Assembly: GCA_947164985.1 (NCBI GenBank)
Contig: CAMUYI010000005.1
Coordinates: forward strand, 1-64,000
DNA length: 64,000 nucleotides
From: an uncultured Bacteroidales bacterium
GTDB lineage: Bacteria; Bacteroidota; Bacteroidia; Bacteroidales; Paludibacteraceae
Direction of reading: 5' to 3'
The notes beneath the pieces are model-generated. The model made no database searches and had not been told where the DNA came from. It worked only from the letters and a program-made list of their open reading frames with translations. Position numbers and translations under genes: made by a program. Of this stretch, positions 32,299 to 49,333 are shown piece after piece (within the stretch, counting starts at the first letter, position 1; every line of letters begins with the position of its first letter).

Positions 32299-32837
32299 AA
32301 AAGATTGCCTTATTTCTTGTAATAGCGCTCTGCGCAATGTCTTGCAATCAAACGACGCCTCTGCCGAAACAGGTTTATCCGGAGAGCTATACCACGGCCT
32401 ATCAGCAGATATTCGGTCATTGCTATGACTCGTTGCCGGACTTGGCGGTGGTAGCGCTGGATCTCTATTCCAAAGGACTTGATCTGGATAAAGATTCGCT
32501 CATTCGTGGAACGGGATACAATCTCTACCTCTCCGATATCTTCGTACCGGACTCTCTGCTCGAAGAAGGCGAATATATATCAATCACCAATAACCAATTA
32601 CCAATTACCGCTTTCACTTTCCTTCCCGGAAAGGACTACGGAGGTACGCCACACGGCATCTATCTGCTGACGATCGAGAATAGTAGCATCACTAAGATAC
32701 AGATCTTCGACTCGGGTTCGTTCGTCTATCGCAACGACAGCCTGCTATTCACGCTCTATTATACGAATGCCGAAGGCTATCCTGCCACCTATAACTGCAA
32801 TTTCTCGGGAACCCTCATCCCATGGGTAAAAAAATAA
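32295..32837 (+). CDS. Putative lipoprotein
   Basis: Signal peptide MKKIALFLVIALCAMSC. Confidence 0.7.
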   Translation: MKKIALFLVIALCAMSCNQTTPLPKQVYPESYTTAYQQIFGHCYDSLPDLAVVALDLYSKGLDLDKDSLIRGTGYNLYLSDIFVPDSLLEEGEYISITNNQLPITAFTFLPGKDYGGTPHGIYLLTIENSSITKIQIFDSGSFVYRNDSLLFTLYYTNAEGYPATYNCNFSGTLIPWVKK

Positions 32838-33733
32838 CATCCGATGAGCATCTCCGCCGCGAATACCATACCTGGTTGCGGTTGGAACGGGGCTACTCGC
32901 CCAATACCATCGAGGGATACGAGATGGATCTGGATAAACTGCGTACGTACGCGCAGGACAATGGTCTCGACATCGTTCATATGGATTTTGACCAGTTGCA
33001 AGCGTGCATCTATGCGCTCTGCAAGGATATGAAGTCGGAAGCCACACAGGCGCGCTTGTTGGCGGGTATCCATGCGTGGTTTCGTTTTCTGCTGTACAAA
33101 GATTATATCGAGCAGGACCCGTCCGAACTGCTGGAAGGGGCGAAGAAATCCAAACATCTGCCTACCGTGCTGACGCTGGATGAAGTGAATGCGATGATGG
33201 CGGCTATTGACCTCAGTTCGAATGAAGGGCATCGCAACCGCGCGATGCTGGAGATGCTATACGGGAGTGGACTGCGGGTAAGTGAGTTAGTCAACCTGCA
33301 ACTTAGTAAGATTTACCTTCACGAACATTACATGCTCATCGAAGGGAAGGGCTCCAAGCAACGCCTGGTGCCTATCTCGCCGGTAGCGGAGGAGTGGTTC
33401 GGTTACTGGATGCAGGAACGCGCCACCTGGCCGCTTAAGCCCGAATCGAAAGATATCGCGTTTGTCAACCGGTACGGTCGTCCTATGACTCGCGCGATGG
33501 TGTTTACTATCGTCAAACGTCTCTGCGCCGAAGCCGGCATCACCAAGACCGTTTCGCCGCATACACTCCGCCATTCGTTTGCAACCCATCTGCTGCAGAA
33601 CGGCGCGGACCTGCGTATCATCCAGCAGTTACTCGGTCATGAAGACCTCGCTACCACCGAGATCTACACCCACCTCAATGTGCAAGACCTCCGAAAAGCC
33701 ATCTTAGAATGTCATCCCGCGAATAAAGGTTAA
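32822..33733 (+). CDS. xerD: Site-specific tyrosine recombinase XerD-like
   Basis: LYGSGLRVSELVNLQL, PHTLRHSFATHLLQNGADLRIIQQLLGHEDLATTEIYTHL. Confidence 0.92.
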   Translation: MGKKITSDEHLRREYHTWLRLERGYSPNTIEGYEMDLDKLRTYAQDNGLDIVHMDFDQLQACIYALCKDMKSEATQARLLAGIHAWFRFLLYKDYIEQDPSELLEGAKKSKHLPTVLTLDEVNAMMAAIDLSSNEGHRNRAMLEMLYGSGLRVSELVNLQLSKIYLHEHYMLIEGKGSKQRLVPISPVAEEWFGYWMQERATWPLKPESKDIAFVNRYGRPMTRAMVFTIVKRLCAEAGITKTVSPHTLRHSFATHLLQNGADLRIIQQLLGHEDLATTEIYTHLNVQDLRKAILECHPANKG

Positions 33734-36629: not shown

Positions 36630-36896
36630 TCAAGCATCGTGGTTATATTGAGCATAGTTGCCCAAAATCTGCTCAATGTGAATTACCTCCGGACATTCGT
36701 CCCATGTAAAACCACCGCCCATCAAGTACCAGTTCTTACGCTTACGTACCGGCACTTTCTTTATAGACGGGAACGCCGAAATGGGCATTGTTATCTGCCT
36801 ACCATCTTTCAGCACTACTTGGAACTTTCCTCTCGCCGGAAACACCAACTTGCTAATCGTGGGCTTAATATCCCAATATCCTTCTACCTGTGCCAT
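36630..36896 (-). CDS. DUF2442-type small protein
   Basis: GKFQVVLKDGRQITMPISAFPSI...WDECPEVIHIEQIL. Confidence 0.7.
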   Translation of the reverse strand: MAQVEGYWDIKPTISKLVFPARGKFQVVLKDGRQITMPISAFPSIKKVPVRKRKNWYLMGGGFTWDECPEVIHIEQILGNYAQYNHDA

Positions 36897-36897
36897 A

Positions 36898-37188
36898 TTA
36901 TTTAGTGATTTTAATTAATTTCACATTTCCACCTTTCTTAAAAATCTGCCATTGTTTAAGCAATAACTCTTTGTTTTCTTCAATTATTTGCTCCAATTCC
37001 TTTAATTGCGCATCTGTCAAATCTCCTTCTTTAGACAACTCCACCTTCGGTTCTAACCAAAATTTGGCAAAATGCTCTGTATCTTTCTTACCGACATGGA
37101 CATGTGCTCTATTCTCATTTACGTCTCTTCCGAAAAACAAGAACGTCCACACGATCTTTGCCGTCATGTATAATAGTACTTTAGGCAT
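36898..37188 (-). CDS. DUF4160-type small protein paired with DUF2442
   Basis: MPKVLLYMTAKIVWTFLFFGRDVNENRAHVHVGK...FWLEPKVEL; start refined to 37188. Confidence 0.7.
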   Translation of the reverse strand: MPKVLLYMTAKIVWTFLFFGRDVNENRAHVHVGKKDTEHFAKFWLEPKVELSKEGDLTDAQLKELEQIIEENKELLLKQWQIFKKGGNVKLIKITK

Positions 37189-37203
37189 ATGCTTCCTTTC
37201 CTT

Positions 37204-37300
37204 CAATTTTGCGCCGCAAAATTACAATAAATAATTGATATATGCAAATTTTTGAGGGAAAATTCTTCGTTTTGGGAACATTTTGAAGCATTTTGGACAT
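37204..37300. repeat. About 95-bp promoter-containing direct repeat, copy 1
   Basis: caattttgcgccgcaaaattacaataaataattgatatatgcaaatttttgagggaaaattcttcgttttgggaacattttg; matches 37928-38020. Confidence 0.9.
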
Positions 37301-37456: not shown

Positions 37457-37666
37457 TTATCGTTGCAAGAACCCATCAAAACATAGGTCCTCATCTATCA
37501 GAGGCCAATGAATACCATAGGGCGAACATTCGTAGTTGGCTCTCTCTTTCTCGCTTGCATGCAGTAACCTAGGGTAGCGTGCGAATGGCTCACATGCCTC
37601 ACGACCATCAGCAGTACGTATCCATACTCCTGTGTCGGTCAACCATATTTTAGAAACATTAAGCAT
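37457..37666 (-). CDS. DUF2442-like small protein (second pair)
   Basis: MLNVSKIWLTDTGVWIRTADGREACEPFARYPRLLHASEKERANYECSPYGIHWPLIDEDLCFDGFL. Confidence 0.65.
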   Translation of the reverse strand: MLNVSKIWLTDTGVWIRTADGREACEPFARYPRLLHASEKERANYECSPYGIHWPLIDEDLCFDGFLQR

Positions 37667-37671
37667 AGCTA

Positions 37672-37911
37672 TTAGTTTTTGAAATATTCATTCCAACGAT
37701 TTACAATAATTTCCTTATTTTCCTCTATGACGGATTCTGCCAATCTCAGTTCTGATGCCTTTAATCCATTATTCTCAATGAGTTTAACCTCTGGCTCTAC
37801 GCTGAATTTAGCTTCGTGCTTTTGGTCCTTAATAACATGCACATGTACCGGCTCGTGGTCGTTCGAATAAAACATAAAGCGGAACCCAAATAAGTTAAAT
37901 AATGTTGGCAT
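37672..37911 (-). CDS. DUF4160-type small protein (second pair)
   Basis: FGFRFMFYSNDHEPVHVHVIKDQKHEAKFSVEPEVKL. Confidence 0.75.
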   Translation of the reverse strand: MPTLFNLFGFRFMFYSNDHEPVHVHVIKDQKHEAKFSVEPEVKLIENNGLKASELRLAESVIEENKEIIVNRWNEYFKN

Positions 37912-37927
37912 AATAGTTTTGTATTTT

Positions 37928-38020
37928 CAATTTTGCGCTGCAAAATTACAATAAAAAATTGATATATGCAAATTTTTGAGGGAAAATTCTTCGTTTTGGG
38001 AACATTTTGGGTTATTTTGG
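37928..38020. repeat. About 95-bp promoter-containing direct repeat, copy 2
   Basis: caattttgcgctgcaaaattacaataaaaaattgatatatgcaaatttttgagggaaaattcttcgttttgggaacattttg. Confidence 0.9.
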
Positions 38021-38063
38021 ACTAAGTTTCCATTTTTTCTCGTAATTGGCGTATACTTATTAT

Positions 38064-38127
38064 AGTATGTTATTAGTAGGTGATTAGTAGGTGATTAGTA
38101 GGTGATTAGTAGGTTATTAGTATATTA
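38064..38127. repeat. Degenerate 11-bp tandem repeat (GATTAGTAGGT)n, second locus
   Basis: gttattagtaggtgattagtaggtgattagtaggtgattagtaggttattagta. Confidence 0.9.
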
Positions 38128-38200
38128 TAATCGGTATCATCTCACGAACATCACGACCATCTCGCGACCATTACGGAACGTCACCGATAGATAATAACCA

Positions 38201-38490: not shown

Positions 38491-41400
38491 TTATTTTACC
38501 AGACGACCAGTAGCGTCATACATCTTCTCACCGCGGAGGATGAAGATCTGACCGTTGATCATTACCTTAACCGGAGCCTCAGCAGCGTTGATAGCATCAA
38601 TACCGGTAGCAACTTGCTCTCCATGAACGGTCATAACTACGCGACGACGCGGAGCATTGCCTTGTTGCGGCTCGTTACTATAAGCCGGAACTCCTGTCAT
38701 ATCCAAGTATGCACGGTTTGCGCCAACATATACATTATCCGAGTTAACATAGTACAATGCGTTATTGTAGATAATGTAGTTAGTAGCGACCTGTGCAATC
38801 GATGCTTGCTCGAACGCGCCGACCAGACCATTGTTGCCTTCGGTTACAGGAGCTAATACTGCATCACCGGTGTAAGCAACCTCAAGCGTGCTTGCTGCTG
38901 CACGGAAGATATACGGACGACCTGCATCGAGTGTACCGGTAACTTCTTCAAGGATGATATCTTTGTTGTTTGCAGCCTTGCTGAGTACTCTCCAAATAGA
39001 GCCAGCTTTAACAGCGGTAACTGCCTTGTCAAGACACATGGTGTAGTACCAACCTTCGGTCAAACCATTACGAACTTCGGTGTAATTCACTACCGGCGGT
39101 TCCGGAGTATCCTCTTCGAGCATGTAAAGAGCCACCAAAGTTCCTGTCGTCGAATTCGTAGCATAGCAAGAGAAGATAGGATTACCATTATTAGGATTAT
39201 AACGCATCAGTTTGCGAGTATTCTCACCTTGAGCGGTAATAGTTGCTTTAGCATCTGTATCAATGCTAATACTCCACTGACCTTCAGCATCATTAGTCTC
39301 TTGAGATTTTAGATAGTTGCTACCAGAAGAAGCAGCACAGAGATATTTATTATCTGTTCCCTGGAATGCCCATATGCCTTCACTTACTGCAACCAAAGTA
39401 AACACTTTCGTCCCTTCTTCAGGAGTAAGTGATGCGCCAGCAACAGCACTTTCGATTGCTCCACGGTTATTACTACGTTGCTCTGCCATCGTGTTGATAG
39501 TACCATCTGCATTTATATATTGAGCAATAATAATCTTCTTACCAGCAGCAAGTGTGGAAGCATCAGTTACAAGCGTCCAAGTACCGGTAACATCATCCTC
39601 AGCAACAGGCTCGGTAACGGTCAGAGAGAGGCTGATTTCTTTTGCGGTTGCCTGACCAGCGTTATCGCTAATGGTCAGCGTTGCTGCAAATGTACCTACG
39701 TTAGCGGAGCTTGCCGAAACGATAATAGTTCCACTTGCGGAGAGAGCCATCGGGTCAGCGCTAAATGCAGCAGCGCCTTCACCAGTAATCGCCACCGTAG
39801 CAGCTGCCACATTCTGCAGCGTTACCTGAAGATTCTTTGCATTGATAGTAGCACCTTGCTCTACAGAGCCAAAGTTCAGATAAGTTGTCGGATTAGTAAT
39901 GATTTCCGGGGTCGGATCATTTACAATAATCGTGTACGAAATTGTAGCCGGCTTATAGTCATCATTTCCAGCAAAAGTAGCGGTAATGTGTGCCGTACCG
40001 GTTGCATTATCAACAAGCGAAACAACACCTGCGTTAACTTCTGCCAAGTACTCATTATCACTTTCAATTGTGATTGCACTTGCGTCAATGCCGTTCGGGT
40101 TCTGCAATGTCGCAGCAGTAAATTCATCACCAAGCGTGATTTCTATTTCATCAGTACTCCATGCTAAACCAGAAGCAGCACGAGTATCTTCAACATAATA
40201 AACTTTCAGCAGCGTCATACGAACCTGCTCATTCGAAGCTGTTAGCGATACAGAATTAGCATCACCCGTCCATTGGTTGTTGTCCTTATCAAGAGCTGGA
40301 TCATCTGCAAAACCATCAATCGGTTTATCAGTTGTGCACGTAAATTCGATCTTCTTGATCTTATAATCCGTAGAAGACAATGTCATCGTTTGATTCTTGT
40401 ACAAACGATAATTTTCGCCATTACCCATTGCTCCGTTTGTGAACTCTAATGTAAAGCCGCCTTTGGTAATGGACAACTCATTTGTACCTGCAATATCTAC
40501 AGTAGCATCAAACGTTATATTATCCAAACCTGCTTCATTAACCGTAATGGTGTAAGAAACAATTGCGGGTTTATAGTCATCATTACCATTGAAGGTAGCA
40601 GTAATAGTAGCCGTACCAGTTGCATCAGCTACGAGCGAAACAACACCTGCGTTAACTTCTGCCAAGTTCTCATTATCACTTTCAATTGTGATCTCAGCAG
40701 CATCAATGCTATTCGGGTTCTGCAATGTCGGAGCAGTAAACTCATCACCAACGGTCAACTCAATAGCGTCAGTACTCCAAGCTAAACCAGCAGCAGAACG
40801 GTTGTCAGGAATGTACGAAACAATGATCTTGCTCATACGAACTTGGTGTCCGGAAGCCGTCAAAACAACCTCACTTGCATTACCTGTCCATTTGTCATTT
40901 GATACGCCTGCAAAACCATCAGATGTATAACTACCGCCAGTTGTTACGAATTCTATCTTCTTAATATTACCAACTGTAGAAGTTACTGTAAGATTTGCAT
41001 TTTTGAAGCATTGATAATAAGAGATAAGATTACTTTGATCATTTACACCATCCGTGTGTGAAGTTTTGATATTGATACCGCTCTTGGTAACACCTTCATC
41101 ATTATCTTCCGCGATATCTGAAGCCAAAGTAGCATCAAAGGTTACTTTTGTGAGCGAAGGATTAACAATGGTAAGGGTGTATGTTGCTGTACCTGCTAAG
41201 TGAGTAGCGTCTCCCGTTGTGGAAGCAGTGATTGTCACTACACCATCTTCATTACCAACAGTTACTTCACCATTCTCATCAACAGTTGCCAAATTCTCAT
41301 CACTGCTGGTATACGTTACCGTTAAACTATTAGGATTCGAAAGATCATTGGTAAATGCAGCTGCATTGATTTCTTTCTCAATAGCCTTTATTGCATAGTT

Positions 41401-43203
41401 CAAACCTGCTTCCGCTTTGTTTCTATTAAGGCTAATCAAATAGTTACCAGCAGCAAACTCATAGATATCATCATGTTTCGTGAGAGTTCCGTAGATTACT
41501 ACTTCATCTTCCACCAAAATATCCGTAACGGAAGTGATATCCTCGTCCTCTAAATATCTTCCACGGAATGCCTCTAATTGGTTTGCAGTAGTTCCATCAT
41601 CCGAAATCCAATAACTTGCATTGTGGTATTGATCAATGTTATCTTGATTCAAATTAGCCGTGCTAACTATACCAGTTGCATATACATTTTCTTTTCCTCC
41701 TAATGCATCTATAACAGCTTTTGCATCTGCAACACTATAAGGATCAGTCAAAGTACCCTCATGCTCTACAACACCAATAGTGTATTTCGCAGAACCAGCT
41801 TTGTAGTCATCATTACCTGCGAACGAAGCCGTGATTTCTGCAAAACCAACAGCCTTGATAGTAACTGCACCATTTGCTGCGACTTCTGCTACAGCAGTAT
41901 TGTTACTTTCATAACTTACAGAAAGACCATTCGGATTAGTTAATGTCGGAGCAGTAAATGCTTCGTCCAACTTTGTCAATTTCTTTTGATCTACCTCATT
42001 ATATGCCAAATCAGCCGGTTGCTTTTGATCGGGGGTATAGGAAACAACTACAGATTTAACATAAATTGCCTTTGACTTGCTTGATCCACGATCAACGCGT
42101 ACTACAATTTCACCACTGCCTGTACCGGTAAAGACATAATCCGCAGAGGTATTCGTTGCTGTTGCGCTTGCACAAGTAAATTCTGTTCCGCCAACTGTTA
42201 CAGAAATAGTTGCCGTGGCTTGTGCATCGCGAGCATTTACGACAACTTTAGCAACTTCTCCCGTGATATCCGAAGTAGCAAGTTGTACATACGTAACATT
42301 CGCGTTATTAGTACCATAGTGGATACCCGACGTTCCATCATATACTGATTCTGTTCCATCAGAAGTTACCGACCATTCTGCACCATCGTTAGCAGTACCT
42401 GAACCGCCACATGCTGCCGTGAAGATCAATTTGGATTTCTCATATGGAGAATTCACATGCACATCACAAGTTGCGGACTTAGAATTATCTGCAACAGATG
42501 TACAAGTAATAATCGCATCGCCTTTGCCTACTGCGGTCACAACTCCATCAACAACAGTTGCAACATCTTCATCATCGGAAGTCCATGTTACATTCTTATT
42601 ACTTGCATTAGCAGGCAGAACAGTTGCATTTAACTCCTGCGTCTCATCTTCATTCAAAGTAATTGCACTTTCATCAAGAGTTACACTTGCTACAGGAATC
42701 GTCTGTTGTTGTTGTGCCGCAAGCGTATAACTCATCGATTGAATACCAACTTGGTTACTTGTCGAACTGAATGTTATTTTAACAGCATTTGTACCTGTCG
42801 GGAGAGAAGAGGACGAAATAGAGAAGTTTGTTGATGTAATCTCCGTAGAAGTATATGTGCTTCCACTATTTGTCGAGTAATGTAACGTAATAGTTTGGGC
42901 TCTTGAACTCCATTGACGACATGTGAAAGAAACAGAGCTCAAACTCTTCGTATTATCACTCAACACAAATGTAACTGGGTTTCCCTTAGTAACAGGATAA
43001 TCTGTGATAGTTCCTGTTTGTTTACTTGCAGACACAAAAGTAATAGTTCCATCAGTACACGTTGTACTATGCTGAGCGTAACCACTAGTCCAGCCAGTAG
43101 AACCCATTGTGGAAAATTTGAAACTTACATCTGTCGCCCACACATTACCCACGCTGAGGAGCATGACCATCAGCAGGGAGAGAAATAGTTTTAGTTTTCT
43201 CAT
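38491..43203 (-). CDS. Giant secreted protein (1570 aa) with Ig-like/BIG2-type and MBG-like repeats and a short C-terminal sorting-like tail
   Basis: Signal peptide MRKLKLFLSLLMVMLLSVGNVWA; BIG2-like VTLDESAITLNEDETQELNATVLPANASNKNVTWTSDDEDVATV; C-terminus KVMINGQIFILRGEKMYDATGRLVK. Confidence 0.85.
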   Translation of the reverse strand: MRKLKLFLSLLMVMLLSVGNVWATDVSFKFSTMGSTGWTSGYAQHSTTCTDGTITFVSASKQTGTITDYPVTKGNPVTFVLSDNTKSLSSVSFTCRQWSSRAQTITLHYSTNSGSTYTSTEITSTNFSISSSSLPTGTNAVKITFSSTSNQVGIQSMSYTLAAQQQQTIPVASVTLDESAITLNEDETQELNATVLPANASNKNVTWTSDDEDVATVVDGVVTAVGKGDAIITCTSVADNSKSATCDVHVNSPYEKSKLIFTAACGGSGTANDGAEWSVTSDGTESVYDGTSGIHYGTNNANVTYVQLATSDITGEVAKVVVNARDAQATATISVTVGGTEFTCASATATNTSADYVFTGTGSGEIVVRVDRGSSKSKAIYVKSVVVSYTPDQKQPADLAYNEVDQKKLTKLDEAFTAPTLTNPNGLSVSYESNNTAVAEVAANGAVTIKAVGFAEITASFAGNDDYKAGSAKYTIGVVEHEGTLTDPYSVADAKAVIDALGGKENVYATGIVSTANLNQDNIDQYHNASYWISDDGTTANQLEAFRGRYLEDEDITSVTDILVEDEVVIYGTLTKHDDIYEFAAGNYLISLNRNKAEAGLNYAIKAIEKEINAAAFTNDLSNPNSLTVTYTSSDENLATVDENGEVTVGNEDGVVTITASTTGDATHLAGTATYTLTIVNPSLTKVTFDATLASDIAEDNDEGVTKSGINIKTSHTDGVNDQSNLISYYQCFKNANLTVTSTVGNIKKIEFVTTGGSYTSDGFAGVSNDKWTGNASEVVLTASGHQVRMSKIIVSYIPDNRSAAGLAWSTDAIELTVGDEFTAPTLQNPNSIDAAEITIESDNENLAEVNAGVVSLVADATGTATITATFNGNDDYKPAIVSYTITVNEAGLDNITFDATVDIAGTNELSITKGGFTLEFTNGAMGNGENYRLYKNQTMTLSSTDYKIKKIEFTCTTDKPIDGFADDPALDKDNNQWTGDANSVSLTASNEQVRMTLLKVYYVEDTRAASGLAWSTDEIEITLGDEFTAATLQNPNGIDASAITIESDNEYLAEVNAGVVSLVDNATGTAHITATFAGNDDYKPATISYTIIVNDPTPEIITNPTTYLNFGSVEQGATINAKNLQVTLQNVAAATVAITGEGAAAFSADPMALSASGTIIVSASSANVGTFAATLTISDNAGQATAKEISLSLTVTEPVAEDDVTGTWTLVTDASTLAAGKKIIIAQYINADGTINTMAEQRSNNRGAIESAVAGASLTPEEGTKVFTLVAVSEGIWAFQGTDNKYLCAASSGSNYLKSQETNDAEGQWSISIDTDAKATITAQGENTRKLMRYNPNNGNPIFSCYATNSTTGTLVALYMLEEDTPEPPVVNYTEVRNGLTEGWYYTMCLDKAVTAVKAGSIWRVLSKAANNKDIILEEVTGTLDAGRPYIFRAAASTLEVAYTGDAVLAPVTEGNNGLVGAFEQASIAQVATNYIIYNNALYYVNSDNVYVGANRAYLDMTGVPAYSNEPQQGNAPRRRVVMTVHGEQVATGIDAINAAEAPVKVMINGQIFILRGEKMYDATGRLVK
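39950..40800 (-). repeat. Intragenic repeat, two near-identical modules about 615 bp apart
   Basis: AWSTD(E/A)IE(I/L)T(L/V)GDEFTA(A/P)TLQNPN(G/S)IDA..ITIESDNE.LAEVNAGVVSLV matched in DNA at about 39960-40190 and 40580-40800. Confidence 0.85.
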
Positions 43204-43267
43204 AATGTTAAAATTTTAAGTTAAACAAAAAGTTAATTAATATTGTTAGTTTTGATTTGTTGCTTAA

Positions 43268-43558
43268 TCATGCTACTGCCAAATGGCGACGCTTAAGAGC
43301 GGCAAGCACACATGCCGAAGCCATAGGATTTAGTCCACGAAAAGTAGTACGGCGTTTCAATTCCTCAAGAGGCATTTCCAATAACACCTTAGCGATGCAC
43401 TCATCAGCAAAAGAATTACTTACTACATTTACTCCCGTAAAATCCAATACCACGCGCTCATCTTGTTGCAAAAGCGGCAATAATCTTTCTCGTACGACTG
43501 CCCCTAATTGGCGCGTACCCAAATCCTCTCCATATTCTCTAAAAGCAAATGTTACCAT
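43268..43558 (-). CDS. STAS-like (DUF4325-type) protein
   Basis: DLGTRQLGAVVRERLLPLLQQDERVVLDFTGVNVVSNSFADECIAKVL. Confidence 0.75.
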   Translation of the reverse strand: MVTFAFREYGEDLGTRQLGAVVRERLLPLLQQDERVVLDFTGVNVVSNSFADECIAKVLLEMPLEELKRRTTFRGLNPMASACVLAALKRRHLAVA

Positions 43559-44205
43559 AGCTGCTCTAATTCGTTGTCGTTTAAAAATAATGTATCAAAT
43601 TCATCAGTCACATCGGTACGATAAGCAACCACTTCTTGCGGATCTATTTCCTTATCGGTTTGAAGTTGCATATAAACGATTGTACCCTGCCAAAAATCAC
43701 TTTCTTTTGTTGATATGACCCCATCGATTACTTGCATTGCGTGGTTTCCGGAACGAACCTCAAACTTCAGGCCTACTTTTTGATCAAGCAATGAGGTGGC
43801 ATATAAACCAAAGCCCATCCCCGCGCCATCTGTTACGTTGTCTTCAATGCAAAGTTTTAATGCTTCTGCTTCTGATAAAGTACGATATTTCTCATTTTTT
43901 GCCAAGGATGCCTGTACCCCTATTCCATCGTCTGCAATCAGAATACTCAGTGTATGAGCCTTTTGATTATAATGCGTTAACACCGTGCCCAGTTGTTTGT
44001 CTGTGTGTATAATAACATTATCTAACATCTCATAGAAGCAATAACTAAATGCATCCAATACCGTTTTCTCAATATCCATATGTCGCATCAGGATTTGCAC
44101 CACATGTCTATAGACAGCATCAATGGTCTTCTCATCGAACACATCTATCGTCACGTCCTCCTCTGCTGCAGGAAAGTATTGTTTTATGAGACTTGATAGG
44201 TTCAT
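43552..44205 (-). CDS. GHKL/HATPase-domain protein
   Basis: YEMLDNVIIHTD (N box), ILIADDGIGVQASL (G1), GAGMGFGLYATSLL (G2); 7-bp overlap with the STAS-like gene. Confidence 0.8.
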   Translation of the reverse strand: MNLSSLIKQYFPAAEEDVTIDVFDEKTIDAVYRHVVQILMRHMDIEKTVLDAFSYCFYEMLDNVIIHTDKQLGTVLTHYNQKAHTLSILIADDGIGVQASLAKNEKYRTLSEAEALKLCIEDNVTDGAGMGFGLYATSLLDQKVGLKFEVRSGNHAMQVIDGVISTKESDFWQGTIVYMQLQTDKEIDPQEVVAYRTDVTDEFDTLFLNDNELEQLW

Positions 44206-44225
44206 TACTTCTTATTTCATTAATT

Positions 44226-44431
44226 CGCGGCAAAGTTACAAAATATCTTTGATATTTGCAAATTCTTTTGCAGTTATTTTCATTTTGTCACCAAAATCGC
44301 TGGTTTTATGAGATTCAAACCATCTTCTCTATCCGATGCTGAGGAGCATGACCATCAGCAGGGAGAGAAATAGTTTTAATTTTCTCATAATGTTTGAGAT
44401 TTTTAGTTAAACAAAAAGTTAATTAATATTG
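44226..44431. repeat. About 205-bp direct repeat copy 1 (promoter, truncated signal-peptide ORF and leader)
   Basis: cgcggcaaagttacaaaatatctttgatatttgcaaattctttt...gttaaacaaaaagttaattaatatt; second copy 44918-45122. Confidence 0.95.
44329..44388 (-). pseudogene. Orphan signal-peptide ORF (19 aa), truncated copy of the 1570-aa protein N-terminus
   Basis: MRKLKLFLSLLMVMLLSIG* versus MRKLKLFLSLLMVMLLSVGNVWA. Confidence 0.85.
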
Positions 44432-44455
44432 TTTGTTATTTTGATTGCTTATAGT

Positions 44456-44785
44456 CTATAGTCTCGGAAGAAGAATATTCCAATTGTTTGTTATACGATT
44501 GACAACAAATCCTCCTTCACATTTATCATAGAACGCATACCAATTGGTTCTATTTCTTGTGTAGGTATATACAAACTCACCGTAACTTTCCAAACCTGCA
44601 AATGTATTCGTGCGATGAAACACTTGCTGATCTATAGTGTTTATATGATCCGCAATGTCATCAAAAATGAGATTAGCATGCTCTTCTGTTAATGCCGGAT
44701 CAATAGCATCCCCTATGCGGAATGATATCAGTCCTGCAAGGATGCGTGCTAAGTCTTCGGCCGATTGTTGTGTATATCTCAACAT
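44456..44785 (-). CDS. Small RelE/ParE-like protein (toxin-like)
   Basis: Tail YGEFVYTYTRNRTNWYAFYDKCEGGFVVNRITNNW; 7-nt overlap with an upstream mini-ORF. Confidence 0.55.
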   Translation of the reverse strand: MLRYTQQSAEDLARILAGLISFRIGDAIDPALTEEHANLIFDDIADHINTIDQQVFHRTNTFAGLESYGEFVYTYTRNRTNWYAFYDKCEGGFVVNRITNNWNILLPRL

Positions 44786-44895
44786 GCTACTCTTGATTGA
44801 ATCAGTTGAGACATACGATAGTGCCCCAGTTCCTTAAACTCTTCCAAGGTCAAGAGTTCCTTGCTCTCTAACTCTTCTATTCTTGTTGTTTCCAT
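44779..44895 (-). CDS. 38-aa putative antitoxin-like ORF (not in the track)
   Basis: METTRIEELESKELLTLEEFKELGHYRMSQLIQSRVAC; GCATGTTGA overlap with the next gene. Confidence 0.5.
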   Translation of the reverse strand: METTRIEELESKELLTLEEFKELGHYRMSQLIQSRVAC

Positions 44896-44917
44896 ATGAT
44901 TTTTAGATTTTCAATTC

Positions 44918-45122
44918 CGCGGCAAAGTTACAAAATATCTTTGATATTTGCAAATTCTTTTGCAGTTATTTTCATTTTGTCACTAAAATCGCTGTTTTTA
45001 TGAGTTTCTAAACCATCTTCTCTATCCCACGCTGAGGACGGCCATCAGCTGGGAGAGAAATAGTTTTAGTTTTCTCATAATGTTAAAATTTTTAAAGTTA
45101 AACAAAAAGTTAATTAATATTG
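44918..45122. repeat. About 205-bp direct repeat copy 2
   Basis: Same order of blocks as 44226-44431, offset about 692 bp. Confidence 0.95.
45022..45078 (-). pseudogene. Orphan signal-peptide ORF (18 aa)
   Basis: MRKLKLFLSQLMAVLSVG*. Confidence 0.8.
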
Positions 45123-45134
45123 ATTGTTTTAATA

Positions 45135-45680
45135 TTATTTCTTACTTTTTTTGACTTTATGCTTGATCTTAACAACAGCCAAATTCAATTCAATCTCTGT
45201 TTCTGTCTCCGTTGTATCCAATTGCGTCCCAAGCACCTCACCAATTAGTTCTCCGCTACGATGCAGAAGGTTCTTCTTCTGAGTTTCATCTTCTGCTACG
45301 GCAACTGCCTGCATCGTGCGAGCCAATTCACGCAACTGAACAAAAGTATCAATAATGGCTATTGTCGTTTGAGTAGCACGCTCGCTCTTCAATATAGTTG
45401 CCAACATGTACAAACCACTCTCCGTAAAGGCTGTTGGCGCATTTCGTCTTCCACCCCAACTTGAGATCAAAATTTTTGATTTCAAGTCCGCAATCTCTTG
45501 ATTATCAAGCCTTATCAGATATTCATTAGGAAACTTATCCGGGTTATTCTTCACAGCCTGATTTACGACACGGGTCTCAACACCATACAACAGGGCGACA
45601 TCGGAATCCAGAATAACCTGCTTTCCGCGAAGGAGTATTATCTTGTCCTTGACTTGTTCGTATTTAACAATCTGCGCCAT
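45135..45680 (-). CDS. ORF6N domain protein
   Basis: VKDKIILLRGKQVILDSDVALLYGVETRVVNQAVKNNPDKFPNEYLIRL...RNAPTAFTESGLYMLATILKSERA. Confidence 0.9.
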   Translation of the reverse strand: MAQIVKYEQVKDKIILLRGKQVILDSDVALLYGVETRVVNQAVKNNPDKFPNEYLIRLDNQEIADLKSKILISSWGGRRNAPTAFTESGLYMLATILKSERATQTTIAIIDTFVQLRELARTMQAVAVAEDETQKKNLLHRSGELIGEVLGTQLDTTETETEIELNLAVVKIKHKVKKSKK

Positions 45681-45719
45681 GTTATAGTTGTTCGTTTATT
45701 ATGAGTTTCTATACCATCT

Positions 45720-45862
45720 CCCCTATCCGATACTGAGGACGGCCATCAGCAGACAGGCGAAAAATAGTTTTAATTGTCTTAGCCCCTACGAGGCACGATT
45801 ATTACTCATAATGTTTGAGATTTTTAGTTAAACAAAAAGTTAATTAATATTGATTGTTTTGT
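45720..45862. repeat. Leader/signal-peptide repeat copy 3 (degraded, with an insertion after the first codons)
   Basis: Minus strand ATG AGT AAT AAT CGT GCC TCG TAG ... RQLKLFFACLLMAVLSIG*; leader AATATTAATTAACTTTTTGTTTAAC. Confidence 0.85.
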
Positions 45863-45864
45863 TA

Positions 45865-46021
45865 TTACAATAAATCGGAATGTGTCCCTGTACGCATAAA
45901 TAACAGAGTCAGTTGTGTATCATTTTGCTGCCAAATCATTAACCAATTTGGTTCTATATGACACTCCCAACAATTAGCATAATCCTCGGATAGTGTACAT
46001 CTCAACCTAAGATTTGACGAA
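45865..46021 (-). pseudogene. C-terminal remnant of a YafQ-family toxin
   Basis: LRCTLSEDYANCWECHIEPNWLMIWQQNDTQLTLLFMRTGTHSDLL*, no start codon, directly behind an antitoxin-like ORF. Confidence 0.65.
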
Positions 46022-46205
46022 ACATATCATCTACACTATCAGCCTTGTAAATACGTCCCATGCGCACATCTTCCAAAGCAGCATCGATACCTTTGCGACG
46101 ACGCGGTTTCAATCGCTCTGTTATCACACCAAGCGAACTTAAATACAGAAACAGACTCTGTCCCGCTTGCGTTCTCTCATTAATATGTACTGCGTATGTT
46201 GCCAT
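46002..46205 (-). CDS. Antitoxin-like protein (67 aa)
   Basis: MATYAVHINERTQAGQSLFLYLSSLGVITERLKPRRRKG...; related start to 46597-46827. Confidence 0.6.
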   Translation of the reverse strand: MATYAVHINERTQAGQSLFLYLSSLGVITERLKPRRRKGIDAALEDVRMGRIYKADSVDDMFRQILG

Positions 46206-46258
46206 AATATGTTTGAGATTTTTAGTTAAACAAAAATGTTAATTAATATTGATTGTTA
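46204..46258. repeat. Leader repeat copy 4 (leader only) directly abutting the antitoxin start codon
   Basis: ataatatgtttgagatttttagttaaacaaaaatgttaattaatattgattgttag. Confidence 0.9.
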
Positions 46259-46606
46259 GCTTTGTTGCTTTTTTCTTCTAAGCGGTCGAACAATACTTCT
46301 CCGTTTTCTCGGATTCATACTGCAATCCCATATAGCTTGTATTGAACAAATGTCATTTTCGTATAAATAGTAAATTCTATATGTGCGTTTGCTCCAACGG
46401 ATAATTAGATAATAGTACTGCGTGTCCGGTGTTGAGAACTCATTATCTTTAATTCCCATCGTTGGAAAATTTCCCAATCGCTCAACATCATCCATTATCA
46501 AATCCCGAAGCCCCAAGGCAACGACTTCAGAAGCATTGTCTCGATAATAGTCGAACAGACTCTTTAAGTGCCGCTTGGCAAGTGTTTGCCACCTTATCAA
46601 AGCCAT
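46256..46606 (-). CDS. RelE/ParE family toxin
   Basis: MALIRWQTLAKRHLKSLFDYYRDNASEVVALGLRDLIMDDVERLGNFPTMG...YYYLIIRWSKRTYRIYYLYENDICSIQAIWDCSMNP. Confidence 0.8.
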   Translation of the reverse strand: MALIRWQTLAKRHLKSLFDYYRDNASEVVALGLRDLIMDDVERLGNFPTMGIKDNEFSTPDTQYYYLIIRWSKRTYRIYYLYENDICSIQAIWDCSMNPRKRRSIVRPLRRKKQQS

Positions 46607-46827
46607 GATGCCATCTCCCGCTTAAAGTCCTCATGAGATGTACCCAAACCTTTGCGAGCCTCAGCCGCTGATTCTGCCAACATTGCTTTCATCTCCTCTT
46701 TCGAAAATTGGCACGGAGCGACACCACGGGTTAGCGGTTGCAACTTAATATTCAGCGTCCCTAAATACGTCAACAAGGCTCTTCCTTGTGTAGAACGCTC
46801 ATCAATTGTCATTGCGTATGTTGCCAT
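46597..46827 (-). CDS. Cognate antitoxin-like protein (76 aa)
   Basis: MATYAMTIDERSTQGRALLTYLGTLNIKLQPL...; 10-nt overlap with the toxin gene. Confidence 0.7.
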   Translation of the reverse strand: MATYAMTIDERSTQGRALLTYLGTLNIKLQPLTRGVAPCQFSKEEMKAMLAESAAEARKGLGTSHEDFKREMASWL

Positions 46828-46922
46828 AATATTATATTGTTATTCAGTTTTTTACAGATATGTGGTCAAAAATTTTGACCGGATTTCTTTTTAGTCAAAA
46901 ATCACCAACAATGATCCAAAAA

Positions 46923-47786
46923 TTAATTATTTTCATCCTCTCCTTCAAACGGTAACTCATCTGGCGGCAATGTAAAATTAACGGCACGCTGATTAGAAAT
47001 AACCGTGTCTCCCAATTCTTGCTCTAATTGTTCACGAGCCACATGCGCCACATTACCTCCGCGTCGAGCCACATCGGCATTCTCAGCAAATCCCTGTGGG
47101 TTCTCGCGTCGGCTCAACTCGGTTGCTGCAGCCTCGGCCAAACCATTGAGCATCAACTCCACGTTTGTCATATTATCTCGCAAGTTCTCCTTACGAAGAC
47201 CTTTATATTCCTTGTACGCACGAGTGGACATCCCGCTCCAGGCCATCGAGATGATATCCGTCAATAGAGCGAAATCTCTACTCTCTTCCATTCCGCCCCT
47301 CTGCCATTCGTCTGTCAGTTCTTTACGAATCTCTATGGTCTTTATACGTTGATTGATCCACTCCTCCGAGTATCCCAGACGACGATAGTCCTTAATAGCC
47401 TGATCTATGCTCTGCTCCGGATCCTGCAACTGATCCAACCTTTGCCGTCCCACAGCAGCCAGCCATAACTTGAACGGCTCCGCTTTCTTGCTTGGAACAG
47501 ACTGTATCAAACGGAAAACCTGTTCTGTATCAGCTACATCAGTAAGACGTAGCTTGCCATCCGGAGCGGGTAATTTCAACTGTACGATTTTTTCGTACAC
47601 TTCACTTCCTTCCGCTTCCAACTTGCGTTTAAGGTCGCTCCAATAGCGGCGAGGATTCTCGCTATCCGTCAGGACCTTAATCACATCAACTACCGAGAAG
47701 AAGTATTTCTCCTTCTCTGCATCCCAGACATAGCGAACTTGCTTCCCTTCGAATAATTGTATTTTATTATTCTCTTCCATTCTCAA
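46923..47786 (-). CDS. BRO-N/antirepressor-like (DinD-like) protein
   Basis: VRYVWDAEKEKYFFSVVDVIKVLTDSENPRRYWSDLKRKLEAEGSEVYEKIVQLKLPAPDGKLRLTDVADTEQVFRLIQSVPSKKAEPFKLWLA. Confidence 0.85.
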   Translation of the reverse strand: MRMEENNKIQLFEGKQVRYVWDAEKEKYFFSVVDVIKVLTDSENPRRYWSDLKRKLEAEGSEVYEKIVQLKLPAPDGKLRLTDVADTEQVFRLIQSVPSKKAEPFKLWLAAVGRQRLDQLQDPEQSIDQAIKDYRRLGYSEEWINQRIKTIEIRKELTDEWQRGGMEESRDFALLTDIISMAWSGMSTRAYKEYKGLRKENLRDNMTNVELMLNGLAEAAATELSRRENPQGFAENADVARRGGNVAHVAREQLEQELGDTVISNQRAVNFTLPPDELPFEGEDENN

Positions 47787-48054
47787 TCATAAACGAAAAA
47801 GAAACAAAACCGTATAGTGGTTCTGTTTCTTTATAGCGTATCAAGCCTATCTGCGGTCGTGAGGCCGGAGGTAAAATACTGATATGCTGTCGTTTGATTC
47901 ATCATAAAGTAGTGTCTTAACCGTTGGTACTTATGGTGTATTCAAAAATCCGGTGCAAAGATACAACAAAAAATTGATATATGCAAGCGTTTTCGTAAAA
48001 TAATTTTTTTTGCTATTATTGTTTTACAAAAAGTCGATTTGTGAGGTCAAAAAC

Positions 48055-48083
48055 ACAACCCCGCCTCGGGGAGGCAGGGTTGT
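48055..48083. terminator. Terminator-like hairpin
   Basis: ACAACCCcGCCTCggGGAGGCaGGGTTGT. Confidence 0.75.
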
Positions 48084-48110
48084 TGTTTAGGATGTCATAC
48101 GCGGGAGAGA

Positions 48111-48458
48111 TTATTTAAACTCCTTGTGGAATTTCTCAATATGCACTTTAAAATGCGGTATGTCTTGTGTGATAGTTACCCAAAGCATATCTTGACTAAT
48201 GTGGATATAATCATGCACAAGCACATTACGCATAGCCACAATTGGTCTCCAATCTACCTCGGTATGCTCATCTCGGAACTCGCGCGTTAGCATGTTGGCT
48301 GCCTCGCCAATGATCTCGATCTGCTTTACAAGGCCGTAATACAGCAAACGATTATTGAGCAACTCTTCTTTTGAGTAAGTTGCCAAGCCGTTCTCAATAA
48401 CGCTAATAGCATCCAGAATATGCTCTAAACGCTCCTTGTCTCTGCTATGCTCTCTCAT
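48111..48458 (-). CDS. hepT: HepT-like (DUF86) toxin
   Basis: RNVLVHDYIHIS (RxxxxHxY motif). Confidence 0.88.
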   Translation of the reverse strand: MREHSRDKERLEHILDAISVIENGLATYSKEELLNNRLLYYGLVKQIEIIGEAANMLTREFRDEHTEVDWRPIVAMRNVLVHDYIHISQDMLWVTITQDIPHFKVHIEKFHKEFK

Positions 48459-48750
48459 AGATTAAGAATTTATCTCTGTTTGCGGATTCCTGTGCAAAAG
48501 GAAGCAATTCATCACTTTCTACTAGATCTACCTCGCGATGAAGCAGTTCTTGCAGATCCAACTTCATGGTCACGTACTGAAACAAGCCCATTGGTCTGGA
48601 CTTATCCAAATCGACTAATATATCCACATCGCTTTCAGGCGTCTCCTCTCCACGCGAACAAGAGCCAAACAAATAGGCTCTATTCACCGGTCTTGACGCA
48701 AAAAAACGCTGCATCCGCGGAATCATATTTGCTACTTCTGCACTTGGCAT
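48445..48750 (-). CDS. mntA: MntA-like nucleotidyltransferase antitoxin
   Basis: YLFGSCSRGEETPESDVDILVDLD; 14-nt overlap with hepT. Confidence 0.88.
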   Translation of the reverse strand: MPSAEVANMIPRMQRFFASRPVNRAYLFGSCSRGEETPESDVDILVDLDKSRPMGLFQYVTMKLDLQELLHREVDLVESDELLPFAQESANRDKFLIYERA

Positions 48751-49333
48751 CTCGTTTTCCTTTTACCTTTGACGCTGCAAAGGTACAACAAAAAAATGAT
48801 ATATGCAAATAATTCACAGAAAAAGTTATGCAATTAGGGAGTTTAAGTCCCGATTTGCATAGTTTTCCACACATTCTTTTAGATGTTTTTTTGTCAATAA
48901 TCTCCAAAATGGCCCAAAAATGAGCCCAATAAAAGATAGCAGTTGTCGCTATGACGCTATTAATGAGATGGAACTTTGAGACTATGAGACTTTGATGAGA
49001 CTTTGTATGTACTTGATATATAGATGGTTAATAGCAAAAGTGTCAAAGTGTCAAAAGTGTCATGCAAATTTTTAAAAGCGACAAAGCGACAAGGTAAAAA
49101 TTCGATTAGTGGATTAGAGGATTAGTGGGTTAGAGGTTAGGAGTTGGGAAGGGTAACAACCAAGCAATAACCAAGTAATATCTAAGTAATAACTAACTGT
49201 TGATAGCTAAAAAGATCGGGAAAGGTACAGGAAAGGTACGGGAAAAGTCTAGGATTACCAGGTAACGCTAAGGTAGTTGATAGGAGATGAGTCCCAAAAG
49301 AGAGCCCACAGATGAAACGGATAGCACAAAAAC

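Follow-up and report, generated by a model that had tools for sequence, protein, structure and literature searches.

The locus described here is probably a cassette array of an integron-like kind that has no integron integrase, and whose cassettes are exchanged by homologous recombination between copies of a leader/signal-peptide segment. It lies on the minus strand of a 64-kb stretch of DNA (the window), which is a piece of contig C5 of a Bacteroidales metagenome-assembled genome (MAG; G000, 2.6 Mb in 57 contigs). All genomes compared with it are incomplete MAGs, and all evidence is comparative. The repeated unit is the leader at the 5' end of a giant secreted-protein gene, often together with the beginning of its signal peptide, and each small gene or gene pair sits between two copies of this leader. 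According to the mechanism that we propose, recombination between leader/signal-peptide copies would delete cassettes, insert them from incoming DNA or reorder them, and every exchange would regenerate a leader ahead of the next gene.

The most complete repeats are two linkers in direct orientation, which an earlier note on this DNA had already placed correctly and described in the right order. Positions 44226-44437 and 44918-45135 are 91% identical over ~212 bp, with an E-value (1e-79, when 44918-45135 was searched against G000) that excludes a chance match. On the minus strand, both consist of the leader, a truncated signal peptide of 18-19 codons, a tail and a promoter. The truncated signal peptides read MRKLKLFLSLLMVMLLSIG and MRKLKLFLSQLMAVLSVG, each followed by a stop, and the promoter is of the Bacteroidota type (TTTG-20-TAACTTTG). 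The offset between the two starts, estimated earlier as about 692 bp, is 692 bp on the promoter side and 690-691 bp on the leader side. Solely the overlapping ORFs of 38 aa (44895-44779) and 109 aa (44785-44456) are enclosed, as the note had claimed.

These two linkers belong to a series of five copies, since three partial ones occur at 43256-43148, 45860-45696 and 46257-46209; each repeats the 5' leader of the giant gene, usually with part of its signal peptide. Along the direction of transcription, the array starts with cassette 5, a 76-aa ParD-like partner (46597-46827) and a ParE-family toxin gene (46256-46606), followed by R4, which is a leader only (46209-46257). Cassette 4 contains a 67-aa antitoxin-like gene (46002-46205), translated straight from R4, and a C-terminal fragment of a YafQ toxin (45865-46005). 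It is separated by R3 (45696-45860; leader, truncated signal peptide and short tail, with a 28-nt insert and no promoter) from cassette 3, an ORF6N-domain gene (45135-45680). The R2 linker (44918-45135), the 38-aa antitoxin-like and the 109-aa toxin-like ORF of cassette 2 (44779-44895 and 44456-44785), and the R1 linker (44226-44437) come next, and cassette 1 comprises a HATPase (anti-sigma-like) gene (43552-44205) and a STAS-like (DUF4325) gene (43268-43558). The 3' end of the array is formed by the giant gene itself (38491-43203; 1570 aa, with Big_2 domains), the source of the repeated leader and signal peptide, of which R0 (43148-43256), an intact leader with signal-peptide start, is the functional 5' end. 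Upstream of the ParD-like gene lie a BRO-N gene (46923-47780), absent from the matching place in G030, and a pair of genes for 115 and 101 aa (48111-48750) with its own promoter (48773-48814), which we read as HEPN/MNT-like. The ORF6N, BRO and 101-aa MNT-like proteins have phage-defence matches in PADLOC (PDC-S05, PDC-S13 and PDC-S09, respectively); we use these labels as candidate functions, and any benefit, be it addiction or phage defence, is likewise presumptive.

From stop codon to next ATG, the distance is 35-67 nt (17 junctions in eight genomes), a gap that the leader fills. This spacing suggests that the leaders probably act as ready-made translation starts, and that the cassettes and the giant gene are probably read as one operon from upstream promoters.

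The pair between the full repeats was called toxin-antitoxin (TA)-like in the earlier note, a description that gains support from its conservation and from the predicted fold of the larger protein. The two ORFs overlap by 7 bp. Homologues of 109-111 aa are present in nine other genomes (with remnants in G015 and G190), and in the complete homologues examined a 38-52-aa ORF precedes and overlaps them. An AlphaFold2 model of the 109-aa protein (pLDDT 79, pTM 0.72) was compared with the PDB by Foldseek, and the top 15 matches were all TA toxins of the ParE/RelE type, with TM-scores of ~0.55-0.65 for the better ones and E-values from 1e-3 to 0.15. Neither protein had a match in Pfam, NCBIfam or PADLOC, and a sequence profile of the 109-aa protein retrieved nothing meaningful from the PDB. 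Given a ParE/RelE-like predicted fold and no curated family match by sequence, a TA function is likely as a prediction; the pair probably constitutes a type II TA module with the ParE/RelE fold, toxin activity being presumed from the model. With the ParDE and RelBE systems it would share the fold of the toxin behind a small overlapping partner gene, but it differs from them in the missing family matches and in an antitoxin of just 38-52 aa.

A search of 178 same-genus genomes, together with annotation maps, revealed similar arrays in ~20 rumen MAGs of the genus (Paludibacteraceae), in which cassettes are present, absent or reordered. Giant signal-peptide genes are preceded by such arrays in G030, G015, G006, G035, G142, G200, G113, G190, G169, G143, G191, G032, G093 and G195. 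In a second set, with other leader types (L124-L128 and L131), the 38/110 pair is accompanied by small genes of PIN-like, MNT-like, RelE-like and other kinds, as labelled from our reading of the sequences. In G030, for example, one leader joins the YafQ cassette to the giant gene; ORF6N, 38/109 and HATPase/STAS are absent there, and an extra 46/105 pair is found between ParE and YafQ. Similarly, a single leader links ORF6N with the giant gene of G015, a genome that lacks two cassettes at this place and has a 38/109 remnant elsewhere in the array, upstream of YafQ. The earlier note had regarded the 38/109 pair as a discrete excisable unit and had looked to relatives with a single repeat copy and no pair. 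The pair does behave as one cassette among several, but it is embedded in a genus-wide array and does not stand alone; G030 and G015 do possess one leader copy and no pair at this place, but among the relatives compared no allele was found that lacks exactly and solely the 38/109 pair, three cassettes being absent in G030 and two in G015.

Cassettes also move between species, as judged from cassettes that are nearly identical despite divergent mfd genes. The 3' 413 bp of HATPase/STAS have 99.8% identity between G000 and either G142 or G200, and 100% between G142 and G200, with mfd identities to G000 of 72% in G142 and 75-82% in G200. For the YafQ pair of G000 and G015, identity is 99.4%, against 81% in mfd. 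Between the array regions of G032 and G093, the sole match of at least 60 bp is a DUF1016 cassette with its flanking repeats (97% over 1293 bp). Mis-binning of whole contigs was ruled out as an explanation, because the identity is confined to islands inside long contigs. Tail and promoter, too, are 97-100% identical between species, and one tail-promoter type precedes unrelated genes (38-aa, HATPase and 46/105) in different species. These observations bear on the idea that the repeats are scars, i.e. that giant genes were duplicated and then lost again, so that their 5' stumps now stand between TA genes that are ordinary and immobile. Such a history would account for linkers that hold real signal-peptide starts with premature stops, and giant genes are indeed often neighbours. 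It appears quite improbable, however, as neither the bodies nor the 3' ends of giant genes have left visible remnants in the linkers, the same tail and promoter stand ahead of unrelated genes across species, and the cassettes are near-identical in distant genomes and reordered. As a separate observation, two species share the same internal HATPase deletion between short AAGTAAT repeats (L087 7491-7372 and L088 7615-7734), which leaves a 39-aa remnant within a cassette of 100% identity.

Some leaders were evidently borrowed from the local giant gene. In G075 and G152, the 48 nt with which the 38/110 pair begins (36 nt before the gene and its first 12 nt) are 98% identical to the giant gene downstream, while the starts of the 38-aa-type gene elsewhere are mostly different (32-96% identical). 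Two leaders from one genome resemble each other more than leaders from different genomes do (0.72 vs 0.63; permutation p 0.0006, in a comparison that ignores phylogeny). The locus could be conceived instead as an ordinary TA/defence island, in which functional constraint keeps one Bacteroidota 5' UTR and promoter in front of all the genes; the leader is indeed also found before signal-peptide genes that are unrelated and have a promoter of their own (e.g. at ~100787 of contig C5 in G000). We consider this very improbable: coding remnants of signal peptides with stops are no 5' UTR, and their presence at each linker largely refutes such a reading; the TA-gene start that matches the local giant gene in G075 and G152 speaks against it too.

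Crossover positions, inferred from shared variants, are variable. They fall to the right of TTTTTG at the ParE-YafQ junction of G000 and to its left at the 38-YafQ junction of G015; ahead of the 38-aa gene they lie near CTCATAA, at the foot of the tail, and in HATPase/STAS directly past the stop. Scattered crossovers of this kind are more in line with homologous recombination than with one fixed site. Against homologous recombination stand the shortness of the leader homology (~50 bp, AT-rich) and the fact that, among these MAGs, no deletion junction was observed inside a single population.

A further feature that counts against plain homologous recombination, which does not need it, is a hairpin in the linkers. 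When those with a truncated signal peptide are folded, be it as RNA or as single-stranded DNA, they give a single imperfect hairpin between TTATGAG and CTCATAA (in R1 as in others), with z-scores from -2.4 to -5.5 (R1-R3 of G000, G030, G142, G200 and G015). The hairpin results from a partial complementarity between tail and signal-peptide start. That the tail might be a full inverted copy of leader and signal peptide was rejected, as local alignments were within those of shuffled sequences for most linkers; the hairpin itself is beyond the shuffles. The linkers might be att-like sites, perhaps recognised as folded single-stranded DNA, of some recombinase, and the array a true integron analogue. 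This we regard as rather unlikely. In its favour are the hairpin, which does not occur in this shape at the giant genes' own starts, the near-identity of tail and promoter across species, and the leader core GTTTAAC, which presumably fits the integron R-box consensus. Against it, crossovers lie at several positions, the searches for an integron integrase and for a XerC/D-like gene near other arrays were negative (see below), some giant starts fold well in other ways and with low z-scores too, and in many arrays (G143, G191 and G035) the linkers are reduced to the leader or have lost one arm and do not form the hairpin, which is therefore dispensable in places. Paired bases show a double change in 1 of 21 pairs (covariation term 0.04), and with covariation near nil we make no claim of a selected structure. 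It is unlikely as well that the palindromic linkers are the folded recombination sites of an independent, non-IntI, integron-like system of Bacteroidales, in which TA and phage-defence genes would be stored before giant surface-protein genes. The hairpin could be a by-product of palindrome-prone mutation, an element that stabilises the transcript, or a folded recombination site; an Rfam search of 43000-49000 gave no match. Separately, an insert with a small hairpin, ATCGTGCCTCGTAGGGGCTAAGAC, was observed right behind the start codon of some truncated signal peptides (R3, at 45782-45808; L050, L085 and L091), and a related insert in G169 is in frame and reads MRDYRTPCGLRKLKLF.

None of the candidate recombinases examined accompanies the arrays consistently. 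Among 23 same-genus genomes, all of them incomplete MAGs and including G000, G006, G015 and G022, no integron integrase (TIGR02249) scored over the cut-off, the best scores being at XerC/D level. The XerC/D-like gene of the window (32822-33733) was rejected, as no such gene lies near the other arrays examined, and Y1/REP-type transposases (PF01797) are weak or absent, and missing from some array genomes. By eye, no paired R boxes were seen in the linkers, which have the GTTTAAC core and the hairpin.

Among known arrangements, the locus comes closest to chromosomal integrons and superintegrons (as defined in PMC3856429) and to orphan Rhs/CDI modules. Like the integron arrays, it is a string of mostly promoterless genes or TA pairs, apparently read from upstream promoters, with a repeat after each, and the exchangeability expected of gene cassettes is seen here as presence or absence, reordering and cross-species identity. 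By contrast, an integrase was not found here, crossovers vary, the array is ended by the giant gene itself, and what is repeated is the beginning of that gene (5' leader/signal peptide), not a demonstrated attC. Orphan Rhs-CT/immunity and CDI modules can recombine via a repeated piece of a giant gene, 522 bp at 95% identity (PMC3967940). In the present array, too, the small modules come with recurring pieces of the giant surface-protein gene beside them. In those systems, however, the repeat is the conserved core with modules downstream, and here it is the 5' leader/signal peptide with modules upstream. Their cargo, a displaced C-terminal toxin domain with its immunity gene, is also different: the giant proteins here have Ig/Big_2-type domains only, and the cassettes encode intracellular proteins (ParDE, YafQ, ORF6N, BRO, STAS/HATPase etc.). 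By analogy, the array may be viewed as a 5'-end mirror image of orphan Rhs/CDI modules, with TA/defence cargo. In the open-access papers searched, we found no description of such arrays. If our reading is correct, a repeated 5' leader could turn any giant gene that is strongly expressed into a cassette platform without an integrase. This would explain the spread of TA/defence-like genes among rumen Bacteroidales, tie these genes physically to variable surface-protein genes, and provide a natural system in which homology-driven cassette exchange can be compared with that of integrons.

Several further elements were noticed. Directly downstream of giant genes, ORFs of ~42-61 aa starting with MK(K)xYxxPxxE (e.g. 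MKMYKKPMTEVMDLKTASLMVG...) occur in several genomes (window 49558-49409 and 38443-38258; L049 6109-5960; L050 12863-12711; L052 10657-10511; L091 6780-6625; L093 10067-9939) and may form a conserved peptide family. Downstream of the giant gene in the window, tandem pairs of small genes, DUF4160/DUF2442-like by our reading, are located at 36630-37206 and 37457-37911. Both lie behind one promoter repeat (37202-37298 and 37926-38022; 94% over 97 bp), a second cassette-like duplication. An element of 58 bp recurs with 97-98% identity in different places among related genomes (window 48049-48106, L049 5870-5927 and L050 12620-12677), and shorter copies of it lie on both sides of an additional MNT/HEPN-like pair in G030 (L049 3768-3805 and 4655-4691). 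Finally, arrays of an 11-bp repeat, GATTAGTAGGT, lie in an 85-bp block that is found twice in the window, 38 kb apart (200-284 and 38058-38142), with 86% identity.
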